From Candidatus Iainarchaeum sp. (GTDB lineage: Archaea; Iainarchaeota; Iainarchaeia; Iainarchaeales; JAXPJC01), in assembly GCA_018304445.1 (NCBI GenBank), contig JAGVWD010000047.1:1-9100 (forward strand): DNA of 9,100 nucleotides, written 5' to 3'. The translations under genes were made by a program, and so were the position numbers. Positions within the stretch are counted from its first letter, which is position 1; the number at the start of each line of letters is the position of its first letter. Below, piece after piece: positions 1 through 9,100 of the stretch. Below the pieces are notes generated by a model, which made no database searches, was not told where the DNA came from, and saw nothing but the letters and a program-made list of their open reading frames with translations.

Positions 1-140
1 GGCATTGTCCACGTTCCTTCGCCATGAAGCGCGGAATCCGCTTTCTTCGCATCAGAGTGCCTCAGCCCAAGCAGCACTTTCCCAGAGCGCAGCAGCATTA
101 TGCCAACGCCAACACCAGAAACCCCCTTTTCACTTCCCAT
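1..140 (-). CDS. NUDIX hydrolase, N-terminal part (cut by window edge)
   Basis: Reading the minus strand from the ATG at 140-138 gives 46 codons without a stop up to the window edge. The peptide contains VGVGIMLLRSGKVLLGLRH and, near the edge, HGEGTWTMP. This is the usual opening of a MutT/NUDIX domain: a first beta strand with a conserved hydrophobic run, then the G-x-W-x-x-P segment that directly precedes the GG of the NUDIX box. The box itself (G-x5-E-x7-REUxEExGU), with its metal-binding glutamates, would lie beyond base 1 and cannot be checked. NUDIX enzymes cleave nucleoside diphosphates linked to another group; the substrate cannot be told from this fragment. A TAA lies in frame seven codons upstream, so this ATG is the first possible one. 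A GGATGAT just before it may be a weak ribosome site. The gene starts 40 bases after the 3' end of tRNA-Gly(TCC), on the same strand. Confidence 0.82.
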   Translation of the reverse strand, partial: MGSEKGVSGVGVGIMLLRSGKVLLGLRHSDAKKADSALHGEGTWTM

Positions 141-180
141 ATCATCCGCCGCCTTTTATTTGATTAAATTCTGCCATAAA

Positions 181-297
181 TGCGTCCGGTGGGATTCGAA
201 CCCACGTATGGAGCTCGCCTTTTCTTTTCCGAGGTTTTCTTTTTTCAAAAGAAAAGCTCGTGGAGGGCTCCAGTCCTAACCACTAGACCACGGACGC
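181..297 (-). tRNA. tRNA-Gly(TCC) with a 45-nt intron
   Basis: The minus strand folds as a tRNA. The acceptor stem GCGTCCG/CGGACGC has discriminator A (base 181), the D arm is GTCT-AGTGGTTA-GGAC, the anticodon stem is GGAGC/GCTCC, and the T arm is GTGGG-TTCGAAT-CCCAC with a 4-base variable loop. Exon 1 is 297-261 and exon 2 is 215-181. The mature 72-nt tRNA has loop CCTCCAA, giving anticodon TCC at 264-262 with A37. The GCG...CGC acceptor end with A73 matches the other tRNA-Gly in this window and archaeal tRNA-Gly in general. Position 33 is C instead of the near-universal U, which is odd. A tRNA-Glu(CTC) reading is possible only by shifting the anticodon stem one base, which removes position 26, shortens the variable loop to 3 and puts C at 37, so Gly is preferred. 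CCA is not encoded. A box A lies 26-35 bases upstream. Confidence 0.85.
216..260 (-). other. tRNA-Gly(TCC) intron, with pyrimidine/purine hairpin
   Basis: This intron sits between tRNA positions 37 and 38. Loop bases 32-35 (CCTC) can pair at three of four positions with AAGG near the intron's 3' end. That leaves three-base bulges CAC and CGA, a relaxed bulge-helix-bulge for the archaeal splicing endonuclease. Intron bases 1-31 (260-230) form a hairpin of CGAG, a C/C mismatch, then TTTTCTTTT paired with AAAAGAAAA around a GAA loop, closed by CTCG. The same pyrimidine arm can instead pair with a second AAAAGAAAAG near the 3' end of the intron, so two exclusive folds are possible. Confidence 0.8.
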
Positions 298-321
298 CTC
301 CTGAAGTAATTATTTCAGAAA

Positions 322-332
322 GCTTTTTATAC
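322..332. promoter_or_regulatory. Box A shared by tRNA-Gly(TCC) and the divergent membrane-protein gene
   Basis: On the minus strand the bases read GTATAAAAAGC, a good archaeal TATA element 26-35 bases before the tRNA 5' end at 297. On the plus strand the same bases read CTTTTTATAC and lie 23-32 bases before the ATG at 355, the spacing of a leaderless transcript. A near-palindrome (CTGAA ... TTCAG with TAATTA at its centre, 301-318) lies between the element and the tRNA. The tRNA assignment is firmer than the plus-strand use. Confidence 0.6.
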
Positions 333-354
333 TACTTTGCTTATTGTTTAGCAC

Positions 355-1290
355 ATGGGCTGGGCAGTTGATTCCGCAATAGAGGTTTTCAAAAAGAGTT
401 TTGACTACAAAAACATATGGTTTTCATACTTCCTCCTGCTTATAATATCATTAATTGTGGCCGGAATAATACTGATAGTTGTAGTGGGCATTCCGGCAGT
501 GATAATTTTCTCAAAATACCTTGTGCTTTATTCCCAATATGCTTCAGCAACAGGCTCTCCGGAACTGGCAGCATTAGGGACAATCGCCGCATTGCTGCAG
601 GCCCTGCCGCAGATTATGATTGCACTTGTTGCAATAGCAATAGCATATTTTATTGTTTATTCCCTATGGGACGCATTCCTTTCAGGATTGCAGCTGAATA
701 TTGCGCTTGATTACCTCAAAAAAGGCAAATTCTCAATCGGGAGCGCATCCACAAAAACAAAGCCAAGGTTTATTACTTTATTTGCCCTTAGCATCATATT
801 CAGCATTCTGGTTTTCATTCTTGCATTGGTATTGTTCCTGCCATTGCTGTCCTCAGTGCTGGGAGTTATAAATCAGCTTTCAGCAGGGGCAGTTTCAGGG
901 CTTCCGGCACCTCAGGACACTGCCCTTTGGGTTAACATAGTGCTTCAGACGGCATTTGCAATATTCGTATTTGGCATTGTGATGTTCCTTGCGGCGCCAT
1001 TCCTTGCGATGATTGCGCCAGTTGCATTGTTTGAGAAGCGCGGCATCGGCGCATCAATCAGGAGAATTATAGAGCTTGGCAAGAAAGGCTATCTCTCAAC
1101 ATTAGGATACGTTATTCTGATTGGCCTGGTAATGCTTGTTGTTTCCTGGGTGCTGGGGCTTGTGCAGGTAGCGCTGATGCCAATTCCTTTTGCAGGCCTT
1201 GTTATAACCGCGGTGCTCAGCATATGGTCCATGGCATATATAAGCCTTGCGCTCGCAAAGCTGTATCAGGTAAAAGCCTCAATGAGATAA
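355..1290 (+). CDS. Multi-pass membrane protein, function unknown
   Basis: This is a 311-residue, strongly hydrophobic protein with about six predicted membrane segments, near residues 22-54, 82-106, 138-170, 192-224, 246-272 and 276-300. A short amphipathic N-terminus (residues 1-20) precedes the first segment, and no signal-peptide cleavage site is evident. The stretch PVALFEKRGIGASIRRIIEL (about 222-241) just before a membrane segment resembles archaeal and bacterial integral-membrane families in which a cytoplasmic 'E-x-x-G-x-x-x-A-hydrophobic-R/K' loop recurs, such as DUF7847-like or GDPD-membrane-domain-like proteins. That likeness is from memory and is weak. No catalytic motif is visible. 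An in-frame TAG two codons upstream makes 355 the first possible ATG. There is no Shine-Dalgarno sequence, and the box A 23-32 bases upstream fits a leaderless mRNA. Thymidylate kinase follows after 37 bases on the same strand, but no functional link is implied. Confidence 0.8.
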   Translation: MGWAVDSAIEVFKKSFDYKNIWFSYFLLLIISLIVAGIILIVVVGIPAVIIFSKYLVLYSQYASATGSPELAALGTIAALLQALPQIMIALVAIAIAYFIVYSLWDAFLSGLQLNIALDYLKKGKFSIGSASTKTKPRFITLFALSIIFSILVFILALVLFLPLLSSVLGVINQLSAGAVSGLPAPQDTALWVNIVLQTAFAIFVFGIVMFLAAPFLAMIAPVALFEKRGIGASIRRIIELGKKGYLSTLGYVILIGLVMLVVSWVLGLVQVALMPIPFAGLVITAVLSIWSMAYISLALAKLYQVKASMR

Positions 1291-1327
1291 ATCACTCTTT
1301 TATTCCTTTTGCATCCTGATTGTTCTG

Positions 1328-1984
1328 ATGAACGGCAAAATTATCGTTATTGAGGGCGCTGATGCTTCAGGCAAATCAACGCAGGCGGAAATCCTTTCAG
1401 CGCGCCTGAAGAAAATTGGAAAAAATGCAAGGGTGATTTCCTTTCCGCGCCACAATGAGTTTTTCGGCTCGCTTGTTGAAAGGCATCTGCGCGGGAAATT
1501 CGGGAATCCGCACGAGCTTCCTGCGGAATTCTGCGCACTGCTCTATTCCGTTGACAGGTACAACATGCTCAATGAAATTAAAAATGCGCTGAAAGAGGGC
1601 AAAATCCTCATAATGGACCGCTATGTGCAGTCGAATTTCGCCTTCCAGACCGCGAAATTTTCAAATCTTTCAGAGCAGGATTCCTTCCTCCAGTGGATGC
1701 AGACTGTGGAAAGCAGGATGCCGAAAGCGGACGCAGTAATACTCCTTGAAATGCCGGCTGAATTTTCCCAGAGGCTCCTGAAAAAGGAAGGGAAGAAAAA
1801 AGACCTGCATGAATCAAATGTTCTCTACCAAAAGCGCGTCCTTGCGGTTTATGAAAGACTGGCGCGCTCAGGGAACTGGCTGCAGATAAAATGCGCATTC
1901 GGGCAGCAGAACGGCAAATGGAAATTAAAATCAAAAAAGCAGATTGCGGAGGAGATTTGGAACGGAATAAAGAATAGAATATAA
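1328..1984 (+). CDS. tmk: Thymidylate kinase (dTMP kinase)
   Basis: This cytoplasmic enzyme phosphorylates dTMP to dTDP with ATP, the step common to the de novo and salvage routes to dTTP. The 218-residue length is normal for the family. The Walker A loop GADASGKST is at residues 10-18. The FPR segment that helps bind dTMP is at 39-41, SVDRYN at 74-79 occupies the nucleotide-binding helix, and DRYVQSNFAFQ at 97-107 is the family's conserved DR(Y/W) motif. A basic LID-like region with R149 and several lysines covers about 149-160. All key parts are present and nothing looks broken. The ATG at 1328 is the first possible start that keeps the P-loop about ten residues from the N-terminus. No Shine-Dalgarno sequence precedes it. 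A weak T-rich CTTTTATTCC 22-31 bases upstream could be a box A for a leaderless message; read-through from the membrane-protein gene is the alternative. Confidence 0.95.
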   Translation: MNGKIIVIEGADASGKSTQAEILSARLKKIGKNARVISFPRHNEFFGSLVERHLRGKFGNPHELPAEFCALLYSVDRYNMLNEIKNALKEGKILIMDRYVQSNFAFQTAKFSNLSEQDSFLQWMQTVESRMPKADAVILLEMPAEFSQRLLKKEGKKKDLHESNVLYQKRVLAVYERLARSGNWLQIKCAFGQQNGKWKLKSKKQIAEEIWNGIKNRI

Positions 1985-2033
1985 TCTTTAAACTAACAAT
2001 AGATTAAAATTCTCTATTCAACACAATATCTTT

Positions 2034-3020
2034 ATGAAATCTGCCATAAAGCCCATTAGAGGGCTTCCTGTAAGGTTTGGACAACTTATTCAATTAGGCA
2101 CTGCAGAGAGAACATACAACAATGCCAACAACAAACAAAGGACAAAAGAAGCATTGCAAAAATGGAAGGACTGGATCGAAAAGGAAAGTAAAAAAACACA
2201 GCAGCCAGAAGGATTGATCCGGCTGAAAAGATGGCGCAATTTGCTTAATATCCTTGCAAAAATAGGAGAGAGGCAACCAACAATATATGAGGTTGCAGCA
2301 ATTTTGGCACGCAACAGCGGCTTAAAGAAGGAAAAACTTATAATTCCACTAAGAATGCTTTCTGCGATTGAGAATAGGCGCCCTCAATTCAAGACTTGGG
2401 AAGGCTCAGTGCGCAGCCTCTATATAGCAGTACGCCAGAATTTGCCATACGAAATTAATAAGGTTCTTGAACAAAATAAAAAAATACTCAATAGCAGAGA
2501 AATAGCAGAAAAACTTGCTATCTCTTGGGATACAAAAAATCAGACCAACATCAATACTGCATTGCAGCTGCTTAATCAGATGGGATGGGCAGAAAAAGGG
2601 CTTATGCAGCCGTCATTTTCGGCGGCAGGTGGCGGAGCAATGTCCACATGGTCATACAAAAAACATGGCCCATTGACGATCAGACATCCAAATTCCGCAC
2701 TGTATTTGCTTGAATCAATTTACAAAAACAAAGACAAAAGGACAACAACAAACTCAATCCTTAAACCTTGGTTTAATTTTAGGGGGAACCCCAAGGCAAT
2801 GCTTTCATACAGGCGAGGTCTTCAGTTAATAAAGAAACTAGAAGAAAAAGGACTCATCAAAACAGAAAGGAAAACAAAACCCAGCCATGGGACATTAGGA
2901 AAAGTAGAATATATTGAAATTTCTTTTACCAAGGAAGGATTAAGAATTATGGAAAAATTCTATAGGCTTGACAGGAAGAGTTTCCATGACCTCAGGGCAT
3001 ATCTGCTCGGGATAAAATAA
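2034..3020 (+). CDS. Orphan protein with winged-helix-like segments, possible DNA-binding regulator
   Basis: I do not recognise the family of this 328-residue, lysine- and arginine-rich protein. Residues 152-188 (NSREIAEKLAISW ... ALQLLNQMGWAEK) look like a helix-turn-helix. Residues about 222-307 look like a complete winged helix: a first helix, a recognition-like helix RRGLQLIKKLEEKGL, a charged wing with KTERK, then EISFTKEGLRIMEKF, a shape common in PadR/MarR-like proteins. A third, weaker helix-turn-helix candidate is at about 80-110. There is no signal peptide, membrane segment or nuclease motif. Codons are markedly A-rich (AAA, AAT, ACA) compared with the GC-richer flanking genes, which suggests recent acquisition. 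It begins 49 bases after tmk and stops 13 bases before the 3' end of tRNA-Gly(GCC). No integrase is seen. ATTAAAAT at 2003-2010 is well placed as a box A for a leaderless start; no ribosome site is visible. Confidence 0.75.
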   Translation: MKSAIKPIRGLPVRFGQLIQLGTAERTYNNANNKQRTKEALQKWKDWIEKESKKTQQPEGLIRLKRWRNLLNILAKIGERQPTIYEVAAILARNSGLKKEKLIIPLRMLSAIENRRPQFKTWEGSVRSLYIAVRQNLPYEINKVLEQNKKILNSREIAEKLAISWDTKNQTNINTALQLLNQMGWAEKGLMQPSFSAAGGGAMSTWSYKKHGPLTIRHPNSALYLLESIYKNKDKRTTTNSILKPWFNFRGNPKAMLSYRRGLQLIKKLEEKGLIKTERKTKPSHGTLGKVEYIEISFTKEGLRIMEKFYRLDRKSFHDLRAYLLGIK

Positions 3021-3033
3021 TAAAAGTCAATAA
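3013..3033 (-). terminator. T-rich tract after tRNA-Gly(GCC)
   Basis: On the minus strand the bases just after the tRNA 3' end are T-rich (GACTTTTATTATTTTATC), the kind of tract at which archaeal RNA polymerase stops. It overlaps the end of the opposing orphan gene. This is inference from composition only. Confidence 0.35.
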
Positions 3034-3186
3034 TGCGACCGCCGGGATTCGGACCCGGGTCCTAACCTAATAGCAAAACCTTCAAAAGCTTTTTTGATTT
3101 TTCTTTTGAACCCAAGGGCCTTTTCTTTTTCTTAAAAAGAAAAGGGGCTTTGGCAAGGTCAGATCCTACCACTAGACTACAGTCGC
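3034..3186 (-). tRNA. tRNA-Gly(GCC) with an 82-nt intron
   Basis: The minus strand gives acceptor GCGACTG/CGGTCGC (one T-G pair) with discriminator A, D arm GTCT-AGTGGTA-GGAT, anticodon stem TGACC/GGTTA, loop TTGCCAA with anticodon GCC at 3154-3152, and T arm CCGGG-TCCGAAT-CCCGG with a 4-base variable loop. Exon 1 is 3186-3151 and exon 2 is 3068-3034; the mature tRNA is 71 nt and CCA is not encoded. The T loop reads TCC where TTC is nearly universal, so base 55, normally pseudouridine, is C. With G18 and G19 present in the D loop, this would disturb the usual 18-55 contact. A sequencing error or a weakened gene are alternatives. This is the GCC isoacceptor of the tRNA-Gly(TCC) at the left of the window. 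A box A lies 25-34 bases upstream, over the end of the transglutaminase-like gene on the same strand. Confidence 0.9.
3069..3150 (-). other. tRNA-Gly(GCC) intron with two hairpins
   Basis: This intron lies between tRNA positions 37 and 38. Loop bases TTGC can pair with GCTA near the 3' splice site with one mismatch, giving a relaxed bulge-helix-bulge with bulges CAA and TTA. Near the 5' end (3145-3119) is a perfect 12-bp hairpin, CCTTTTCTTTTT against AAAAAGAAAAGG with loop AAG. A second perfect 8-bp hairpin, TTCAAAAG against CTTTTGAA with a 14-base A-rich loop, covers 3110-3081. No open reading frame for a homing endonuclease is present. Confidence 0.85.
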
Positions 3187-3210
3187 TTATAATAGAACTA
3201 AATATGGGAG

Positions 3211-3220
3211 CCTTTTTATC
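3211..3220 (-). promoter_or_regulatory. Box A of tRNA-Gly(GCC)
   Basis: The minus strand reads GATAAAAAGG, 25-34 bases before the tRNA 5' end, closely matching the element before tRNA-Gly(TCC). It overlaps the stop codon (3218-3216) of the upstream transglutaminase-like gene, so the tRNA can be transcribed independently of that gene. Confidence 0.6.
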
Positions 3221-4835
3221 TTTTGCGCAAAAGCAGTATTGCGAGCGCAATGGCGATTACTGCAAGAACAGCGATTGCTACAATCAGCATCAGATCAGCA
3301 TTCCCCAGAACAGCGGGAATTCCCCCGGCGCCTTCCCCATTTCCCACGCCTGCTGCATTTCCTTCTCCCCCGCCGTAATTCCAGTCCGCAAAGGAGTATG
3401 AAAGCGTTTTCTGCGTGCTTGAAGGAATCTGCTCAGCAGCATTTTCTGAAATTCCAACTCCGCTGATGTTTATGCCCGCAATCCCGTCCTGCATTCCCGA
3501 ATTCTTCAGGATTATTTTTATTGTGAGCTTTCCGCCTGAAATTTCAGGCACTATTGCAACCAGTTTTATGTTTGCGGCATCTGAAACTTCCCCCTCTGCA
3601 GCATAAACTGAAACATTTCCTTCCACCTCCTGGTCAAAACCCCTTATTGCATATCCATAAATGTAATTCAATCCCGCAGTATCTGGCGCATCCGCATTCC
3701 AGTAAAGCGTTTTCCGCTCCTCAGGATTCAGCAGAACAAGCCTTTCCGGGCTTTCATAAACAAACAGCTCATGCAGCCTCATTTCAATTGGCGCAATGAA
3801 TTTTCCCTGCGTAAGGTTCGCAACTTCAAGATTGAAATCAAAGTTCTGCCTGCTTTTCAGATTTTCAGGAAATAGCACATCAAGCCCTGTGTATCTCTGG
3901 AAATTGCTGAAATCATTTACAATTACATCCTCATCCTTCCCGATTTTGACGCTTATCCCCTGCGTTGTGGTTATTGAATCAACGGCCTGGCTCTGGTCAA
4001 GCAGCTTTGCAAGCACCAAATGCGTCCCATCGACAAACCCGGCCTCAAGGTAAGTGGAATCAAGCGCAACCCATCCCATTCCCGGAACAAAGAACTCAAG
4101 CCATGCGTGCGTATCCCATTTCTTTCCGCTGTAAACATACCCGACAACATATCTTGTTGGAATGCCCCTTGCGCGGAGCAGCGCCGCGGTCAGATTTGAA
4201 AACTCATCGCAAGTGCCTTTCCTCACATCCAGGACTTCCTTTGACGAAAGGACAGTAGTGAAATAATCCAAATCATAGGTTATGTACCCGTGCGCAAATT
4301 CCGCTGCCTTTATTGCATTCTCAAGCAATGAATTTGAATCCAGTGTGGAAAACGCAAGGCTCCTTATCCCTGCATCATTTGACTGTATGTATGTGCTTTC
4401 CTGAAGGAACCGCGTTTCCGCATTTATGGGTGCGCTTAAATCATAGTCCTTCAGGTCAAAAACCGAGGAACTGGTCCTTATGCGCGCATTTATTGTGTAT
4501 TCGAAATTCGCGCTTTCAATATTTGAAATTTTGAATATCGCATATTTGTTCCCGAATTCATCGCTCTCATGCGCCGCATTTATTGTCCTGTTCCCTATTT
4601 GAAGGATTTCCGTAATCCCTGCAATTTCCTGGGTTTCATTCCCGGAAAAAGTCTGCAGCTTTATTTCAACCGTGTCATTCGCGCCTATGCTTCCTGAAAT
4701 TGTCCCATTCCCTATGATAATTACATTAACATCCGCGCTCTTTACTCTTATAGGATTTCCCATCTCAAGCGCATATGCGCCTGAAAGAACAATTGCAGAA
4801 ATAGCCAAAATCAAAAAAATCCTGATTGCGCTCAT
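3216..4835 (-). CDS. Secreted, membrane-anchored transglutaminase-like protein
   Basis: This 539-residue protein has a signal peptide at residues 1-22 (hydrophobic run, then GAYALE). Its transglutaminase-like core at about 170-265 carries the papain-fold triad: C209 in KGTCDEFSN, H243 in WDTHAWLEF and D259 in GWVALDSTY. Beta-rich segments follow, then a glycine-rich linker (about 487-511). The C-terminal membrane helix (514-535) ends in RKR, so the bulk should sit outside the cell. In the family this core can act as a protease, amidase or cross-linker, and many archaeal members are uncharacterised. All three catalytic residues are present; the substrate cannot be inferred. Several N-x-S/T sites lie in the exported part. 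The start overlaps the upstream gene's stop (ATGA at 4835-4832), with GGAG six bases before the ATG, inside that gene's last codons, a strong case for translational coupling. Confidence 0.9.
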   Translation of the reverse strand: MSAIRIFLILAISAIVLSGAYALEMGNPIRVKSADVNVIIIGNGTISGSIGANDTVEIKLQTFSGNETQEIAGITEILQIGNRTINAAHESDEFGNKYAIFKISNIESANFEYTINARIRTSSSVFDLKDYDLSAPINAETRFLQESTYIQSNDAGIRSLAFSTLDSNSLLENAIKAAEFAHGYITYDLDYFTTVLSSKEVLDVRKGTCDEFSNLTAALLRARGIPTRYVVGYVYSGKKWDTHAWLEFFVPGMGWVALDSTYLEAGFVDGTHLVLAKLLDQSQAVDSITTTQGISVKIGKDEDVIVNDFSNFQRYTGLDVLFPENLKSRQNFDFNLEVANLTQGKFIAPIEMRLHELFVYESPERLVLLNPEERKTLYWNADAPDTAGLNYIYGYAIRGFDQEVEGNVSVYAAEGEVSDAANIKLVAIVPEISGGKLTIKIILKNSGMQDGIAGINISGVGISENAAEQIPSSTQKTLSYSFADWNYGGGEGNAAGVGNGEGAGGIPAVLGNADLMLIVAIAVLAVIAIALAILLLRKR

Positions 4836-5368
4836 TTTTTCTCCTTTTTCCTCTCAATCCCTATTCCAAGTTTTACAGTTTTTTCAGCATCTCTGACCTT
4901 GGAGTTCAGCGTTTCCACTTCCTCATCGTTCAATTCAATTTTATCCATGAATCCCGATAATCTTTCCAGCGAATGGGAGGATTCCCTTTCGGCTATTTCA
5001 AGCTTCTTTGCAAAAAAGCCCATATTTTCAAAATCCCTGACCATATTGATCGGGGAGTTATGTATTTCAAGCATGCGAAATTTATTCTCAAGATAGATTT
5101 TGTTTGCCAGAAGGCGCTCCAATCCCCTCTTTTGTTTTGGATTGAGCAATTTGAAATTGCTTCTCCTGACTGCCTCATTTGCAATGACCTTTGCAAAAAC
5201 CCCATATCTAAATGCATTGATGCCAAAATCAGCCTTTGTGGACTTTTTTCCCCTATAAATTCCGGGAATTCTCTTTGCAGTTTCTCTCCATATCCTTATT
5301 GTGGCATCAGGAGTAAGTTTTCCGCGCCTCAAGCGGTAAAACGGGCGCTTTGAAGATTTTGGAGCCAT
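4832..5368 (-). CDS. Small basic coiled-coil protein, function unknown
   Basis: I do not recognise the family of this 178-residue protein. The first ~45 residues are very basic (KSSKRPFYRLRRGKL, then IYRGKKSTK) and could bind nucleic acid. Residues about 75-165 are mostly helical and charged with heptad-like spacing, suggesting a coiled coil. The tail ERKKEKK is basic and its codons double as the ribosome site of the next gene. No signal peptide, membrane helix or enzyme motif is seen. It starts 18 bases after the 3' end of tRNA-Val on the same strand, and those 18 bases hold AGGGAAG, a possible weak ribosome site, but no room for a promoter. It overlaps the transglutaminase-like gene by 4 bases and is probably co-transcribed with it. 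The N-terminal basic patch is reminiscent of a ribosome-associated protein, but nothing identifies it as one. Confidence 0.75.
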   Translation of the reverse strand: MAPKSSKRPFYRLRRGKLTPDATIRIWRETAKRIPGIYRGKKSTKADFGINAFRYGVFAKVIANEAVRRSNFKLLNPKQKRGLERLLANKIYLENKFRMLEIHNSPINMVRDFENMGFFAKKLEIAERESSHSLERLSGFMDKIELNDEEVETLNSKVRDAEKTVKLGIGIERKKEKK

Positions 5369-5386
5369 TTTGTTCTTCCCTGAAAT

Positions 5387-5539
5387 TGGGCCCGGGCGGG
5401 ATCGAACCGCCGACCTTCGGCTTGTTTATTTTCCCCTGAAGATTATTTTCTCTTTGGGTAACACCTAGACTTTCTCTTTTTCTAAAAGAGAAAGGATTGG
5501 TTTGTAAAGCCGACGTCATAGCCGCTAGACGACGAGCCC
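5387..5539 (-). tRNA. tRNA-Val(TAC) with an 80-nt intron
   Basis: The minus strand gives acceptor GGGCTCG/CGGGCCC (one T-G pair) with discriminator A, D arm GTCT-AGCGGCTA-TGAC (one T-T mismatch), anticodon stem TCGGC/GCCGA, loop TTTACAA with anticodon TAC at 5506-5504, variable loop AGGTC and T arm GGCGG-TTCGATC-CCGCC. Exon 1 is 5539-5503 and exon 2 is 5422-5387, giving a 73-nt mature tRNA without encoded CCA. Loop bases TTTA pair perfectly with TAAA upstream of the 3' splice site, leaving three-base bulges CAA and CAA, a strict central bulge-helix-bulge that fixes both splice sites. A protein gene begins 18 bases downstream on the same strand. The box A lies 29-38 bases upstream and abuts an inserted tnpB element. 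Confidence 0.95.
5423..5502 (-). other. tRNA-Val(TAC) intron, with pyrimidine/purine hairpin
   Basis: This intron is at tRNA position 37/38. Near its 5' end (5494-5470) is an 11-bp perfect hairpin, CTTTCTCTTTT against AAAAGAGAAAG with loop AGA, very like the hairpins in the two tRNA-Gly introns. The remainder is A-rich with no clear second helix and no open reading frame. Confidence 0.9.
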
Positions 5540-5567
5540 TTTTTCCGTATTAATGAACTAATGCAAA

Positions 5568-5577
5568 ATATATTTAA
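5568..5577 (-). promoter_or_regulatory. Box A of tRNA-Val(TAC), at the edge of the inserted element
   Basis: The minus strand reads TTAAATATAT, 29-38 bases before the tRNA 5' end. On the plus strand the same bases end in TTTAA, directly before the inferred left end of the IS200/IS605-type element. Any factor-B recognition bases upstream of box A would therefore be supplied by the element. Confidence 0.65.
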
Positions 5578-5594
5578 CTCCGTTGCCAAGAAGC

Positions 5595-5622
5595 CTATAA
5601 CCATAACTTTGTTAGGTTATAG
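5595..5622 (+). repeat. Left-end hairpin of the IS200/IS605-type element
   Basis: CTATAACC pairs with GGTTATAG, and inside, after one bulged A, TAAC pairs with GTTA around a TTT loop. The build is nearly the same as the right-end hairpin. A short second hairpin (AGATG/CATCT, 5621-5636) follows it. Confidence 0.85.
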
Positions 5623-5668
5623 ATGAATTAGCATCTTTGCAGTTCAGTGGCGAAGTGCTCCCAAAAAC

Positions 5669-5678
5669 ATTTAAAAAC
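5669..5678 (+). promoter_or_regulatory. Candidate box A for tnpB
   Basis: ATTTAAAAAC lies about 50 bases before the tnpB start, leaving room for a short leader with the ribosome site GAGGAG at 5712-5717, eight bases before the ATG. Confidence 0.45.
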
Positions 5679-5725
5679 ACCTTAAAGGCAAAATATACTG
5701 AAAGCAATGAAGAGGAGAAATAACT

Positions 5726-6871
5726 ATGATGGCATACAAATTCAAATTATATCCCTCAAAACAGCAGGAGCAGGCACTATTCAAAACATTTGATTTGTGC
5801 AGATTTACTTACAATCAACTCTTGGAAAAACTGGGCAAACAAGAGAAAATTAACAGAAAAGAAATACAGCACAGCCTTGTTGAAATGAAGCAGAACTATC
5901 CTGAACTTCAAGATGTCTATTCAAAAACTTTGCAATATGAATGCCATAGGCTGTTTGGAAATTTGAGGGCATTGGCACAATTAAAAAAGAAGGGTATAAA
6001 AGTTGGAAAGCTGCGCTTCAGGGGAAAAGACTGGTTCAAGACAATAAATTATAATCAGAGTGGTTATGAATTAGAGCAAACAGGGAAAAGATATGGAAAA
6101 CTCAAACTTTCAAAGATTGGAAATATAAATATCAGGTGCCACAGGATAGCGCATGGAGCAATCAAGCAGATAACAATCAAGAAAACAGCAGGAAGATGGT
6201 ATGCAATTCTCATTACTGATGAAGAATACAAGAAACAAAAAGGAGAAGGGCAGATAGGGCTTGATTTTGGAATTATAAATTTTGTTGCAGACAACAATGG
6301 CAACAGAATAAAATCCCCTCTGTTTCTGAAAAGAAGTCTGAAAAAAATAGAAAAAGCACATCAGGATTTATCAAGGAAAAAGAAAGGAAGCAACAACAGG
6401 AAAAGGGCAAAGCAAAGGTTGGGAAAACTATATGAGAAAGTGGAAAACCAGAGAAATGATTTTTTGCATAAACTCTCAACACAAATAGTTTCAGAAAACA
6501 AATTGATTTGCATTGAAGATTTGGACATAAAAGAAATGATTAGCAAAAAGAAAAACAGGTTTTGGAACAGGCGTAATTTTTTGGATTGCTCTTGGGCAAC
6601 ATTTGCTTCTATGCTTAAGCACAAGGCTGAAAGTGCTGGTGCGGACGTGATAGAAGTAAATCCAAAGAATACAAGTAAAATATGCAGTGGTTGCGGAACT
6701 ATGCAGGAAATGTCATTATCGCAGAGAACATATTCCTGTGATTGCGGTTTGGAAATAGATAGGGATGTAAATTCCGCTAAAAATATATTGGCTCAGGGAT
6801 TGGGCTTTGTGGAGAACGAAACAGCAAGTAGTTCTATGAAGCAAGAAGCCATAACCTCAAACAATGTTTAG
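5726..6871 (+). CDS. tnpB: TnpB, RNA-guided nuclease of an IS200/IS605-type element
   Basis: This 381-residue, full-length OrfB/TnpB is the ancestor-type relative of Cas12. Family members use an RNA from the element's right end to cut DNA next to a short motif, helping the element persist. The N-terminal YKFKLYPSKQQEQAL is typical. The split RuvC site appears intact: D180 in IGLDFG, E264 in ICIEDLD, and D347 (or D345) in EIDRDVNSAKNIL. A zinc finger is formed by C320, C323, C338 and C340. The conserved basic segment KKKGSNNRKRAKQRL (about 218-232) is present. Two ATGs stand in tandem; GAGGAG at 5712-5717 fits the first at 5726. The stop codon (TAG) lies inside the right-end hairpin, as is usual where the guide RNA overlaps the end of tnpB. 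Codons are A-rich compared with neighbouring housekeeping genes. Confidence 0.95.
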   Translation: MMAYKFKLYPSKQQEQALFKTFDLCRFTYNQLLEKLGKQEKINRKEIQHSLVEMKQNYPELQDVYSKTLQYECHRLFGNLRALAQLKKKGIKVGKLRFRGKDWFKTINYNQSGYELEQTGKRYGKLKLSKIGNINIRCHRIAHGAIKQITIKKTAGRWYAILITDEEYKKQKGEGQIGLDFGIINFVADNNGNRIKSPLFLKRSLKKIEKAHQDLSRKKKGSNNRKRAKQRLGKLYEKVENQRNDFLHKLSTQIVSENKLICIEDLDIKEMISKKKNRFWNRRNFLDCSWATFASMLKHKAESAGADVIEVNPKNTSKICSGCGTMQEMSLSQRTYSCDCGLEIDRDVNSAKNILAQGLGFVENETASSSMKQEAITSNNV

Positions 6872-6886
6872 GTTATGGTAATTCAC
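6740..6886 (+). ncRNA. Candidate right-end guide RNA (omegaRNA/reRNA) scaffold of TnpB
   Basis: Known TnpB guide RNAs overlap the 3' end of tnpB, end at the element's right border, and take their guide from the flanking DNA. By that rule the scaffold here would cover the last ~130 bases of tnpB plus the hairpin at 6849-6878, and the guide would start near 6887 (ACAGAGCAAGCCAATG). The 5' limit is nominal, and the 3' limit depends on the inferred right end. No direct sequence proof is available. Confidence 0.4.
6849..6878 (+). repeat. Right-end hairpin of the IS200/IS605-type element
   Basis: CCATAACC pairs with GGTTATGG. Inside, after a TC/A internal loop, AAAC pairs with GTTT around loop AAT. 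The tnpB stop codon (6869-6871) is within it. With its upstream CAAGAAG it mirrors the left-end hairpin in direct orientation. Confidence 0.85.
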
Positions 6887-6923
6887 ACAGAGCAAGCCAA
6901 TGCCCAAAACCCAATGCGAAACG

Positions 6924-6933
6924 CTTATAAATA
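6924..6933 (+). promoter_or_regulatory. Box A for the small membrane-protein gene
   Basis: CTTATAAATA lies 48-57 bases before the ATG at 6981. Initiation about 25 bases downstream would leave a leader holding AAAGGAG (6961-6967) and GAGGA (6971-6975), two possible ribosome sites. Confidence 0.6.
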
Positions 6934-6980
6934 ACATCAGCATAATTTAATCACATTTCAAAAGGAGAAAGAGGATAAAA

Positions 6981-7379
6981 ATGTTTTATGGCAGGATTTT
7001 CGGGATGCGCCTTCCTAATTTAGTCGGAGCTTTCATAATAATAATTGCGCTTATAATGTTCTTCACTTCGGCTGCAAAACTCTATGGGATTGGAAGTGCT
7101 GTTGTAGATGCAAAGGATTGTTTGGGAAAAATTGAATTCAACCAGGAAGACTGCAGGGCAGCGATAAAGGAAGCTACAGGGATAACTCTTTTGCAGGGAC
7201 AGTCAAAACTGGCAATAAGGCAGATTTTTGTTGCTGTTGCACCTTCAATAGCTGAGCTTTTGCTTTGGGCCTTGATTTTCATTATTGGAACTGCGCTCTA
7301 CAGAACAGGCAGGCTTGTTGTTGCTTCTTCAATTAAGGGAAAGCTTGCAAGGGTGGCAAAGCGCAGGAAAAGAAGATAA
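6981..7379 (+). CDS. Small two-helix membrane protein, function unknown
   Basis: This is a 132-residue protein. Membrane helices are at about residues 13-33 and 83-106, joined by a ~50-residue loop with two cysteines (C47, C58) that could form a disulphide if the loop faces outside. The C-terminus is a strongly basic cytoplasmic tail (KGKLARVAKRRKRR). The positive-inside rule puts both ends in the cytoplasm, fitting an external loop. The family is not recognised. The start at 6981 has good ribosome sites and a box A at 6924-6933; a second Met at residue 9 is less likely because of the spacing. It converges on dnaG, with only three bases between the two stop codons. Confidence 0.75.
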   Translation: MFYGRIFGMRLPNLVGAFIIIIALIMFFTSAAKLYGIGSAVVDAKDCLGKIEFNQEDCRAAIKEATGITLLQGQSKLAIRQIFVAVAPSIAELLLWALIFIIGTALYRTGRLVVASSIKGKLARVAKRRKRR

Positions 7380-7382
7380 GCC

Positions 7383-8729
7383 CTAAAATACAAGGAGCTT
7401 TATTCCTGAGGTTCCGGCTACTTTCCCCTTTCTTATTCCTACAATGTATTTGCAGGAATGCTTTGCGCTCTCATCCACAAGCCTCTTTGTTATGATTCCA
7501 TCAAACACTATCGCATGCACATTTTCAATTCCGGAAAGGCCCTCAACAAGCCCCTTCACATCCATTGAGGCGATTTCCTTAATTTCCTCATTGTAGAGCT
7601 TTGCCTGCAGGCTTCCCTTCAGGCTTTGCAGCAAGGGCTCGAACTTTGCCTTTTCATCAATGCTTGCAACTGCAGGCCTTTCCTCAGTTGGAAAGCCCAT
7701 TCCTTCCTGCCTCGGATACCCGAAGCCCCTTCCCCTTGGAGGAAAGCGCCTTTCCCCGAAGCCTCTCCCCCCGCCTGATGAAAACCTGCCAGGGCCTCTT
7801 GAAAATCTCGGCCTTTCCCTTGAGAATTCCCTTCTTTCACTGAAGCCGGCGCTTGGCCTTTCGGAATGCCTGTAGGTTCCTTCAGAACTTGGCGCAAAGG
7901 ATTTCGGCTCGGAATAAACCTCATTCGCGGGCTTCTTGTTGCGGAGCGCCGCCAAAATTTCCTTTCTTGCGAGCTCCTCAACTTCCTTTCCATCCGGCGC
8001 CTTTGCGATGTATTTTACGCTTGCGACCTGCACCAGCTTCCTTGCGTTCAGCTCCCCGCCCCTGTCACCATCAATGAAGAGCGTTATGTCCTTGCGCCTG
8101 CTCAGCTCAATTATCTCTTCCGCTATTTTTGCGCCGCCCATGCCGATTACATTTTTTATGTGGTTCCTCAATAAATTTATCACATCCGCGCGCCCCTCAA
8201 CAACAATCGTTTCTTTTTCGGAATCAATGTCCGGCCCCGCAGGAAGCTTCTCCTTCCCATATTCCTGGATTTCGGCAATCCTCGCATCTTCCTTTAGCTC
8301 TGTTGCAAGCTCTTTCGCTTCCGGCAGCTGCCCTGAAAGCTGCTTGAGGATTTCCTTTGCCCTTTCTGTAAGGATTTTGCGCTTGTCCTCGCGCACATCC
8401 TCAATCCTTGTGGTCTTGAATTTCGCCTCGCACGGCCCGACCTTGTCAACCGTTTCTACCGCAGCAGCAAGCAGGCTTGTTGATGCAGTATCGGTGCTGC
8501 TTGGAATCAACACTTCCCCCTTCGTAACTCCCAGTTTTGATTCCAGATTAACCTCAATCCTGCCGAGCTTTCCCGCATCCTGCAGCTCCTTCAGGTCCAT
8601 TTCCTCCCCCAAAAGGCCCTCGCACTGGCCGAAAATCGCGCCAATGATGTCGTGCTTCTCCACAACCCCCTTTATCTCAAACTCCACATGTATAATGTAT
8701 TTTGAAACATCAACATAAGTTTTAGCCAT
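7383..8729 (-). CDS. dnaG: Archaeal DnaG (Toprim primase / exosome subunit)
   Basis: This 448-residue protein opens with the conserved archaeal DnaG N-terminal region, including YIIHVEFEIKGVVEKHDIIG, GQCEGLLG and a conserved STDTASTSLLAAA segment. The Toprim domain spans about 172-245: E179 in IVVEGRADV and the acidic pair D220-x-D222 in FIDGDRGG, the metal-binding residues. In archaea, DnaG has primase activity in vitro and is also a subunit of the RNA exosome, where it favours A-rich RNA. Residues about 285-345 form a low-complexity stretch rich in R, G, F and S (GRGFGERRFPPRGRGFG) ahead of a C-terminal alpha/beta domain (358-448). The start at 8729 is supported by GGAG at 8743-8740 and by the conserved N-terminus. 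Upstream are a box A and a palindrome. The gene ends three bases from a convergent membrane-protein gene. Confidence 0.96.
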   Translation of the reverse strand: MAKTYVDVSKYIIHVEFEIKGVVEKHDIIGAIFGQCEGLLGEEMDLKELQDAGKLGRIEVNLESKLGVTKGEVLIPSSTDTASTSLLAAAVETVDKVGPCEAKFKTTRIEDVREDKRKILTERAKEILKQLSGQLPEAKELATELKEDARIAEIQEYGKEKLPAGPDIDSEKETIVVEGRADVINLLRNHIKNVIGMGGAKIAEEIIELSRRKDITLFIDGDRGGELNARKLVQVASVKYIAKAPDGKEVEELARKEILAALRNKKPANEVYSEPKSFAPSSEGTYRHSERPSAGFSERREFSRERPRFSRGPGRFSSGGGRGFGERRFPPRGRGFGYPRQEGMGFPTEERPAVASIDEKAKFEPLLQSLKGSLQAKLYNEEIKEIASMDVKGLVEGLSGIENVHAIVFDGIITKRLVDESAKHSCKYIVGIRKGKVAGTSGIKLLVF

Positions 8730-8745
8730 ATTATATCATCTCCGT

Positions 8746-8768
8746 TATCAGAAACTGCGTTTCCGATA
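8746..8768. promoter_or_regulatory. Palindrome in the dnaG initiation region (candidate operator)
   Basis: TATC-a-GAAAC-tgc-GTTTC-c-GATA is an inverted repeat with 9 of 10 arm positions paired around a 3-base centre. It lies between the dnaG box A and ribosome site, where transcription should begin. It could be a repressor site on DNA or a hairpin in the leader RNA. Confidence 0.45.
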
Positions 8769-8770
8769 CA

Positions 8771-8786
8771 TTTATTTTTTAAAATT
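8771..8786 (-). promoter_or_regulatory. Box A region of dnaG
   Basis: The minus strand reads AATTTTAAAAAATAAA, a TATA-like tract 42-57 bases before the dnaG ATG. Initiation about 25 bases downstream leaves a short leader with the ribosome site GGAG. The T/A-rich tract may also end transcription from the DUF167 gene upstream. Confidence 0.5.
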
Positions 8787-8808
8787 AGGACGCATTATTA
8801 ATACAAAT

Positions 8809-9078
8809 TCAGAATTTGGAGCTTAGAAGCTTCTGCAGGCTTTCTGCGCCGCCTTCAACAGCAACAGTTTTATTCCTGCTCTTGAAACCTTTCAAAATCT
8901 TGACACTTGAATTAAAAATCTTTGACAAGTTTTTAAGCAACTCCAAATTCGCGGCGTTATTTTCCGGCTTTGATTTCACTTTTATCCTGAGCGTGTTTGT
9001 TTCTTTTGCATAAGAGCAAATTTCGAATTTCCCCGAATTTGTTCTAACCTGCAAATTCAGAATAATGCCGCTTTGCAT
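8809..9078 (-). CDS. DUF167 (YggU-like) protein
   Basis: This 89-residue protein has the two hallmarks of the DUF167/YggU family: KPENNAANLELLKNLSKIF (about 37-55, family pattern K-P-x-x-G/N-x-A-N-x-x-L) and KILKGFKSRNKTVAV (about 60-74, family pattern G-x-K-S-R-x-K-x-V/I). The length is normal for the family. The fold is a small alpha/beta domain found in bacteria, archaea and eukaryotes; no biochemical role is firmly established. The ATG at 9078 gives the family's usual N-terminus, with the first strand LNLQVRTNSG. No clear ribosome site is visible; the promoter would be at or beyond the window edge. It lies upstream of dnaG on the same strand, 79 bases away, with dnaG having its own box A, so co-regulation is not implied. 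Confidence 0.92.
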   Translation of the reverse strand: MQSGIILNLQVRTNSGKFEICSYAKETNTLRIKVKSKPENNAANLELLKNLSKIFNSSVKILKGFKSRNKTVAVEGGAESLQKLLSSKF

Positions 9079-9100
9079 TAAAAATCAAATTACATCCTAA

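Follow-up and report, generated by a model that had tools for sequence, protein, structure and literature searches.

Archaeal tRNA introns span 11–129 nt, with isodecoder medians mostly of 12–25 nt, according to the accessible passages of PMC4090602; the same passages report that introns resembling one another occur in different tRNAs and at different positions, and call the mechanism of their transposition unknown, supposing that it acts at the DNA level. Here, we describe a short three-part hairpin unit found in the introns of all three tRNA genes of a 9,100-base stretch of the genome of Candidatus Iainarchaeum sp. (assembly GCA_018304445.1, contig JAGVWD010000047.1, positions 1–9,100; hereafter the window) and, in related archaea, both inside tRNA introns and outside them. 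The Diapherotrites relatives used in all comparisons with the window are distant, with DnaG at most 54% identical over its full length (higher over short parts). Our leading interpretation, which we hold with as much reserve as conviction, is that each of the three hairpins is a copy of a single dispersed, directional and probably spreading DNA repeat of DPANN archaea that sits at structured-RNA boundaries.

Other short or tRNA-associated elements offer points of comparison. Repetitive extragenic palindromic (REP) sequences are palindromes of 20–40 bp that are often close together in opposite orientation and are possibly mobile; they are marked by GTAG or CGTC tags, occur mostly downstream of coding regions and have RAYT transposases (accessible portions of PMC3733652). 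Organelle genomes, for example that of Volvox, contain short palindromes regarded as selfish (PMC2670323, in excerpt), and a tRNA-Thr gene of Caldiarchaeum is disrupted by an integrating element (PMC3293823, in excerpt). The available parts of PMC12558985, PMC6125680 and PMC11782384 supply general background only. Among the matches listed, no description of a unit of the kind reported here was met in the titles, abstracts and passages of the open-access literature.

The unit is laid out as a pyrimidine arm (Y), a loop, a purine arm (R), a linker and a repeat of the purine arm (R'). On the tRNA strand the window hairpins read TTTTCTTTT-GAA-AAAAGAAAA in tRNA-Gly(TCC), CCTTTTCTTTTT-AAG-AAAAAGAAAAGG in tRNA-Gly(GCC) and CTTTCTCTTTT-AGA-AAAAGAGAAAG in tRNA-Val(TAC). 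They are perfect, with stems of 9, 12 and 11 bp, and agree in sequence with a preliminary description of this DNA, which had noted a pyrimidine/purine triloop hairpin in every intron but had taken the introns to be otherwise unlike; the hairpins are confirmed, whereas the second purine tract, R', which follows each of them at a distance of 6, 11 and 14 nt, respectively, had been overlooked. The genes and the parts of the unit are as follows.

181–297, minus strand: tRNA-Gly(TCC) gene, intron 216–260 (RF00005, 52.3 bits; ARAGORN with introns)
247–255, minus strand: Y arm in tRNA-Gly(TCC), from intron position 6
235–243, minus strand: R arm in tRNA-Gly(TCC); loop 244–246, GAA
220–228, minus strand: R' in tRNA-Gly(TCC), AAAAGAAAA, ending 4 nt short of the 3' splice site; linker 229–234, CCTCGG
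3034–3186, minus strand: tRNA-Gly(GCC) gene, intron 3069–3150 (RF00005, 40.8 bits; ARAGORN with introns)
3134–3145, minus strand: Y arm in tRNA-Gly(GCC), from intron position 6
3119–3130, minus strand: R arm in tRNA-Gly(GCC); loop 3131–3133, AAG
3099–3107, minus strand: R' in tRNA-Gly(GCC), AAAAGAAAA; linker 3108–3118, CCCTTGGGTTC
5387–5539, minus strand: tRNA-Val(TAC) gene, intron 5423–5502 (RF00005, 45.7 bits)
5484–5494, minus strand: Y arm in tRNA-Val(TAC), from intron position 9
5470–5480, minus strand: R arm in tRNA-Val(TAC); loop 5481–5483, AGA
5447–5455, minus strand: R' in tRNA-Val(TAC), AAAGAGAAA; linker 5456–5469, TCTAGGTGTTACCC

These hairpins are the longest inverted repeats listed in the window and its only pyrimidine-first hairpins of at least 8 bp (loop 3–6 nt); there is no purine-first counterpart, and 100 dinucleotide shuffles of the whole window yielded no pyrimidine-first hairpin of that length. 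When the individual introns were shuffled in the same way, the hairpin alone arose in 90, 4 and 0 of 5000 shuffles (Gly-TCC, Gly-GCC and Val-TAC, respectively) and the hairpin together with a repeated purine arm of at least 9 nt in 1, 1 and 0 of 5000. The folding energy of the whole intron (z = −1.12, −0.42 and −2.59) is unexceptional for two of the three. In the window inverted-repeat list, R' is complementary to the Y arm in the Gly-TCC and Val-TAC introns.

The tRNA identities given in the preliminary description are upheld. ARAGORN reports none of the three genes with its intron option off and all three with it on, labelling the third as Cys(aca), shifted by one register; since the spliced exons of this gene match the intron-free tRNA-Val(TAC) of a relative, G015, in 58 of 73 aligned columns, we assign it as Val-TAC, with a splice register that is ambiguous inside a repeated ACAA. 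Both Gly introns have the central helix of a bulge–helix–bulge (BHB) splice structure, the 3 nt bulges of which were deduced from positions and not from scoring.

256–259 with 211–214, minus strand: BHB central helix of tRNA-Gly(TCC), intron positions 2–5 (GAGC) with exon positions 39–42, four standard pairs
3146–3149 with 3064–3067, minus strand: BHB central helix of tRNA-Gly(GCC), intron positions 2–5 (AGCC) with exon positions 39–42, four pairs, one of them G–U

In both Gly introns the hairpin begins directly past this helix, so splicing should remain possible in these two of the three genes. The Val-TAC intron has no central-helix pairs in the register scored, neighbouring registers having been judged by eye only.

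The same arrangement recurs in other Diapherotrites. In 790 kb of G015 sequence, pyrimidine-first hairpins outnumber purine-first hairpins by 25 to 1 at a stem length of at least 9 bp, 24 to 0 at 10 bp or more and 18 to 0 at 12 bp or more; an R' of at least 7 nt follows within 25 nt in 22 of the 25, and the linker is 14 nt long in 14 of these 22. The Gly-GCC unit of the window and one in a G015 tRNA-Pro intron are almost the same, down to the linker, while the whole introns differ. Arms vary between copies, and R' changes along with R: the mean longest run shared by R and R' was 9.04 nt with a copy's own tail and 7.57 with shuffled tails in G015 (0 of 2000 shuffles) and 7.67 versus 6.12 in G010 (0 of 2000). 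A test on full-arm identity, less clear than the shared-run test, was equalled by 11 of 2000 shuffles in G015, 0 of 2000 in G010, 46 of 2000 in the Aenigmatarchaeote G137 and 0 of 1000 in a combined Diapherotrites set. This set was assembled from the 790 kb of G015, from 20 regions of G010 and G011 surrounding matches to a hairpin pattern and, in 27 other genomes, from the first match in each. The last group had 30 loci before three were set aside: L127 and L128 duplicate L197 and L208, and L132 belongs to G015. The set contains 77 hairpins of at least 9 bp, with tRNAs called by ARAGORN with the intron option. Co-variation of the arms is clear in two genomes.

The pattern, TTTYYYTTTN{3,9}AAARRRAAA, was compared across whole genomes with its mirror image as a control, overlapping matches being counted separately. 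It occurs in 60 of 80 Diapherotrites genomes, of which 23 are rich in it (at least seven matches and at least three times the control), as in G010 (68 versus 2 for the control), G047 (69 versus 4) and G015 (52 versus 4). The earlier suggestion of a repeated extra element thus stands, the unit being common to different tRNAs and to related genomes and its arms co-varying. How far other introns carry it is a mixed matter, and the relatives partly bear out the objection foreseen in the preliminary description, namely introns without the hairpin. Ten of the 18 intron-bearing G015 tRNAs have the unit in the intron and the others lack it; among 40 long-span RF00005 matches from G049, G001, G015 and G004, each genome being searched individually, eight carry a hairpin of at least 9 bp (one, L112, with G innermost in the 5' arm), and G004 has no pattern match at all. 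Parsing misplaced some introns, so these 40 matches are not all clean introns. The tRNA-Gly(TCC) intron of G004 (L092) contains a small look-alike, CCTTTTT…AAAAAG…AAAAAGG, perhaps an abbreviated version of this layout.

The placement of the unit around RNA genes is the next line of evidence. Of the 77 hairpins, 47 have an R' and a tRNA within 60 nt, and in 46 of these the tail points away from the mature tRNA or exon: 16 copies follow a tRNA 3' end in sense orientation, seven precede a 5' end in antisense, 18 lie at a 5' splice site in sense and five at a 3' splice site in antisense. The gap between hairpin and boundary (mature tRNA or exon edge) is 3–14 nt in all 46, and the lone exception (L153) is 34 nt away. 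A further 12 of the 77 hairpins are associated with a tRNA but have no clear R'. In G015 sequence that was unselected for tRNAs (contig C2 and the first 120 kb of C4), nine of 11 hairpins lie inside a tRNA or no more than 10 nt from one, the tenth is 6 nt past the RNase P RNA (RF00373, 119.9 bits; C4:96743, L175) and the eleventh is elsewhere. The unit is found at 14 of the 36 ARAGORN tRNAs in the 790 kb of this genome. Since the unit also occurs just outside both tRNA ends and after RNase P RNA, the earlier view of it as a feature of introns in general is not supported in Diapherotrites.

Six of the element-bearing G015 tRNAs (ARAGORN starts C1:18603, 393957 and 394505; C2:12090, 14140 and 28294) are absent from the RF00005 matches yet are found by ARAGORN with its intron option, which means that tRNA finders overlook long-intron tRNAs in these genomes. 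One G015 intron of about 150 nt (L158) has two inverted units, one at each end (C2:28339 and C2:28445); ARAGORN calls its tRNA Ser(aga), though the sequence looks like tRNA-Asp.

Such placement would also be expected of a cis-acting RNA module of precursor processing, in which a hairpin at the cuts made by RNase P, RNase Z and the splicing endonuclease would insulate the mature RNA or hold the splice sites together, with R' as a second partner for the inner arm, so that an intron could alternate between a hairpin formed locally and a long stem that closes it. We consider this possible but unlikely, although several observations agree with it: copies associated with tRNAs lie 3–14 nt from the cut sites, in segments that the precursor loses, and in two of the three window introns the hairpin starts at intron position 6. 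In sense introns, moreover, the stretches that precede Y and follow R' are complementary over at least 4 nt in 12 of 26 cases, and only 2 of 2000 shuffles reach the observed mean complementarity. No such excess exists in 3' flanks, antisense copies or other copies (855, 1178 and 1587 of 2000 shuffles reach the mean, respectively), and this confinement to sense introns suggests some constraint there towards a stem that encloses the unit, which BHB splicing would need. The RNA module is further opposed by the absence of the unit from many introns and entire genomes, and by folding predictions in which the acceptor and T stems gain nothing from a native intron compared with a shuffled one (mean pair probability 0.829 versus 0.817, with nine of 15 rows higher). 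The 15 rows are those left after filtering, with one locus present twice (G015 tRNA-Lys and L132); with no effect across them, insulation of tRNA folding was rejected as an explanation.

The strand of the linker motif bears on the choice between an RNA signal and a DNA unit. The motif (A-R-GTT, TAGGT and variants) was chosen after inspection of the linkers, so it is the contrast between strands that counts. Of the copies in the Diapherotrites set, 25 of 40 in sense, seven of 13 in antisense and four of eight others have it on the strand of the element; none has it on the opposite strand, so that it keeps to the element's strand even where the transcript has its complement. An RNA signal in a tRNA transcript would not be expected to survive being reverse-complemented; a motif that keeps the element's strand whichever way the copy lies therefore fits a directional DNA unit and not a splicing signal. 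For the same reason, the earlier proposal that the structure generally holds the splice sites together or aids splicing is not borne out. Within introns, the Y arm is predicted by folding to pair either with the near R arm or with R', and which purine arm it pairs with in the precursor is a testable RNA question raised by the unit. A triple helix was rejected as a general explanation: R' repeats R directly even where the arm is not mirror-symmetric (AAAAGAAAAAAG), and complementarity to Y is preferred because it fits all cases.

In the dispersed DNA repeat that we favour, the general unit consists of a pyrimidine arm, a loop of 3–6 nt, a purine arm, a linker and one or more repeats of the outer arm. 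Most Diapherotrites copies occupy the edges of structured-RNA genes with the tail directed outward, at the 5' splice site of introns, less often in mirror image at the 3' splice site, in the 3' and 5' flanks of tRNAs and beside RNase P RNA. The unit would spread or turn over at the DNA level and would be tolerated in self-folding sequence that is trimmed off the precursor; we propose that it accumulates at structured-RNA boundaries because it gets cut away there. Turnover is supported by two tRNA-Ser paralogues of G015 (83% identical over the searched stretch), in which the same two positions are occupied by units whose linkers differ, and by the G015 Gly-GCC and Val-TAC genes, which lack introns where the window has them, the two genomes being distant (DnaG 53%). 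On this reading, the unit is a dispersed, probably mobile palindromic repeat of tRNA boundaries that can make up some or almost the whole of an intron. The unit is recurrent and real, and the preliminary description guessed partly right, in that a spreading family is the best reading of the evidence, and partly wrong, in that the unit is not confined to introns and is missing from many of them.

Some Micrarchaeota, some Aenigmatarchaeota and a small number of other archaea have the unit as well; its association with tRNAs is less well quantified there. The pattern occurs in 61 of 115 Aenigmatarchaeota genomes, many with one or two matches and a few that are rich (35 versus 1 for the control in G199 and 24 versus 0 in G137), in 51 of 196 Micrarchaeota genomes, some of them rich (56 versus 3 in G257 and 52 versus 3 in G289), and in 15 of 50 archaeal genomes reached through DnaG matches, about six of which stand out. 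ARAGORN as run does not seek introns in the T-loop; judged by motif and eye only, such introns would explain many of the remaining copies outside Diapherotrites. In G257, 12 of 35 hairpins come after a T-loop motif, downstream of eight of the 12 there are four bases that match the T-stem strand, and in seven of these eight the match lies 61–65 nt from the start of the Y arm. These stretches, of about 60–70 nt, appear to hold little beyond the unit; Rfam detects partial tRNAs in three of 20 G257 stretches scanned. In their lowest-energy folds, read by eye from dot-brackets, the 12 post-T-loop copies pair Y with R' in seven cases and with R in five, as the RNA module would also have it. In G137, units bound stretches of about 200–500 nt that interrupt apparent tRNA T-loops, and near-identical intron ends recur across contigs in such loops, the interruptions being read from the sequence and the tRNAs identified by eye. 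Between their end hairpins, the G137 insertions (L233–L240) hold several different palindromic modules (GTTCACCAATTACAAATAATATAAAAGTGAAC-like), combined differently from locus to locus.

A more specific form of mobility, to which we give rather little credence, would be a minimal mobile element that makes tRNA introns: it would insert beside structured-RNA genes on either strand and, on landing within a tRNA with a few closing bases, would itself be almost a complete intron. Such an element would measure about 60–70 nt with its closing bases, for example ACC…GGT around the unit in G257, and its pyrimidine arm would switch between the local hairpin and the intron-closing stem. If so, long DPANN tRNA introns would be built from such units and further palindromic modules.

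Several observations weigh against the dispersed, spreading repeat. Neither a mobilizing transposase nor a target duplication was demonstrated, nor was a copy present in one strain and absent from the same locus of a close relative, the genera of G015 and G257 being represented by one genome each, and arms differ among the copies of one genome, unlike those of a freshly copied transposon. The Y1 transposase (PF01797) is absent from 12 of the 23 element-rich Diapherotrites genomes, which may be incomplete; it is present in 11 of the 23 and in 13 of the 57 others, a mild association (Fisher p = 0.034). An identity with REP/RAYT systems was rejected, as about half of the rich genomes lack this transposase. 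Eighteen of the 77 hairpins, including seven that have R', have no tRNA nearby, and the orientation rule is partly forced, since the tail of a flank copy cannot point into the tRNA; its unforced part is that, on either side of the tRNA, it is the outer arm that is repeated. Co-variation of R and R' is weaker in G011 (9.2 versus 7.99, 72 of 2000 shuffles) and weak in a mixed set (7.58 versus 7.01, 97 of 2000), and the tail side was picked by the better match, which favours the shared-run result. The 80 Diapherotrites genomes together give 771 pattern matches against 191 for the mirror control, with none in 20 genomes. Outside Diapherotrites, seven of 38 hairpins in the loci read, and six of 35 in G257, lie in or beside an ARAGORN tRNA (within 14 nt for the former), and two of five intron copies in G257 are within 14 nt of a called splice site.

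Origin as a by-product of replication errors is improbable in our estimation. With the polymerase stalled at a folded tRNA sequence, the 3' end would fold back to copy itself, slippage would repeat the outer arm and hairpin repair would afterwards keep the arms equal, without selection or mobility. Addition to a stalled 3' end would give tails that point outward on either strand, and the joint change of Y, R and R', with linkers left unaltered, agrees with templated correction; blind slippage, however, predicts neither the 25-to-1 preference for pyrimidine-first hairpins in G015 nor a linker motif common to several genomes and a recurrent 14 nt spacing. Oligo-T tracts terminate archaeal transcription, and the T-rich pyrimidine arm might thus be a terminator or insulator, with the tail doubling it against incoming transcription: T-rich runs lie just past tRNA 3' ends in sense orientation and, at 5' ends, face an incoming polymerase. 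Since the unit occurs inside tRNA introns, this is very unlikely; an efficient terminator in mid-gene, as in the ten intron copies of G015, would abolish the tRNA, and the intron copies thus contradict it. Meaningless A/T-rich low complexity, the earlier grounds for dismissal, deserves scarcely any credit and is refuted for the rich genomes, where shuffles, mirror controls, tRNA placement and the linker motif all oppose it, even though the arms are low in complexity, with little information besides the G positions, and some genomes have about as many control as test matches (seven for the pattern versus nine for the control in G016).

The window also contains the following genes.

3216–4835, minus strand: transglutaminase-like protein (PF01841), with hydrophobic stretches at both ends as judged by eye
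5726–6871, plus strand: IS605-type TnpB gene (PF01385, PF07282)
7383–8729: DnaG-type primase, 94% identical to a Candidatus Diapherotrites archaeon protein

Two similar palindromes flank the TnpB gene, at 5595–5622 and about 6849–6878 (CTATAACC…GGTTATAG and CCATAACC…GGTTATGG), the whole lying about 55 bp upstream of tRNA-Val, and no TnpA was found among the nine window open reading frames (ORFs) scanned. The ORFs at 355–1290, 2034–3020, 4832–5368 and 6981–7379 have no Pfam match at an E value of 0.001; the composition of the first suggests that it is likely to be a multi-pass membrane protein, and a membrane-protein query found no relatives. A cmscan search of the window against Rfam at gathering scores returned RF00005 only, with no C/D box sRNA and no group I or group II intron.

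As a unit present both in introns and at the outer edges of tRNAs, the repeat may serve as a marker for intron gain that is traceable between strains, and it bears on how archaeal tRNA introns move between tRNA genes, a mechanism called unknown in the accessible passages of PMC4090602. The window introns resemble archaeal BHB tRNA introns in their position at 37/38 and, in two of three, in a canonical 4 bp central helix; they differ in their length of 45–82 nt and in the added Y-R-linker-R' unit, which is also found outside introns. Where transposed tRNA introns are alike as whole introns, the likeness here is that of a short directional hairpin repeat shared by introns and outer tRNA flanks. 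REP sequences and the bacterial interspersed mosaic elements (BIMEs) differ from it in that here the arms are homopyrimidine and homopurine, the outer arm is repeated, the copies are at tRNA boundaries and a Y1 transposase is missing from the 12 rich genomes noted above; linkers after R often read TGTAG, TGTAA or TCTAG, which is not obviously a REP tag, no systematic tag search having been made. Palindromic elements of Rickettsia are likewise short and regarded as selfish. Both these and the organelle elements have other hosts and other sequences, and we know of no tripartite layout in either. The Caldiarchaeum element, finally, is alike in tying the gain of a tRNA intron to a DNA element, and differs in size and content: in the excerpts of PMC3293823 it is about 1.8 kb long with a predicted recombinase gene, whereas the window unit is about 40–60 nt long and non-coding.

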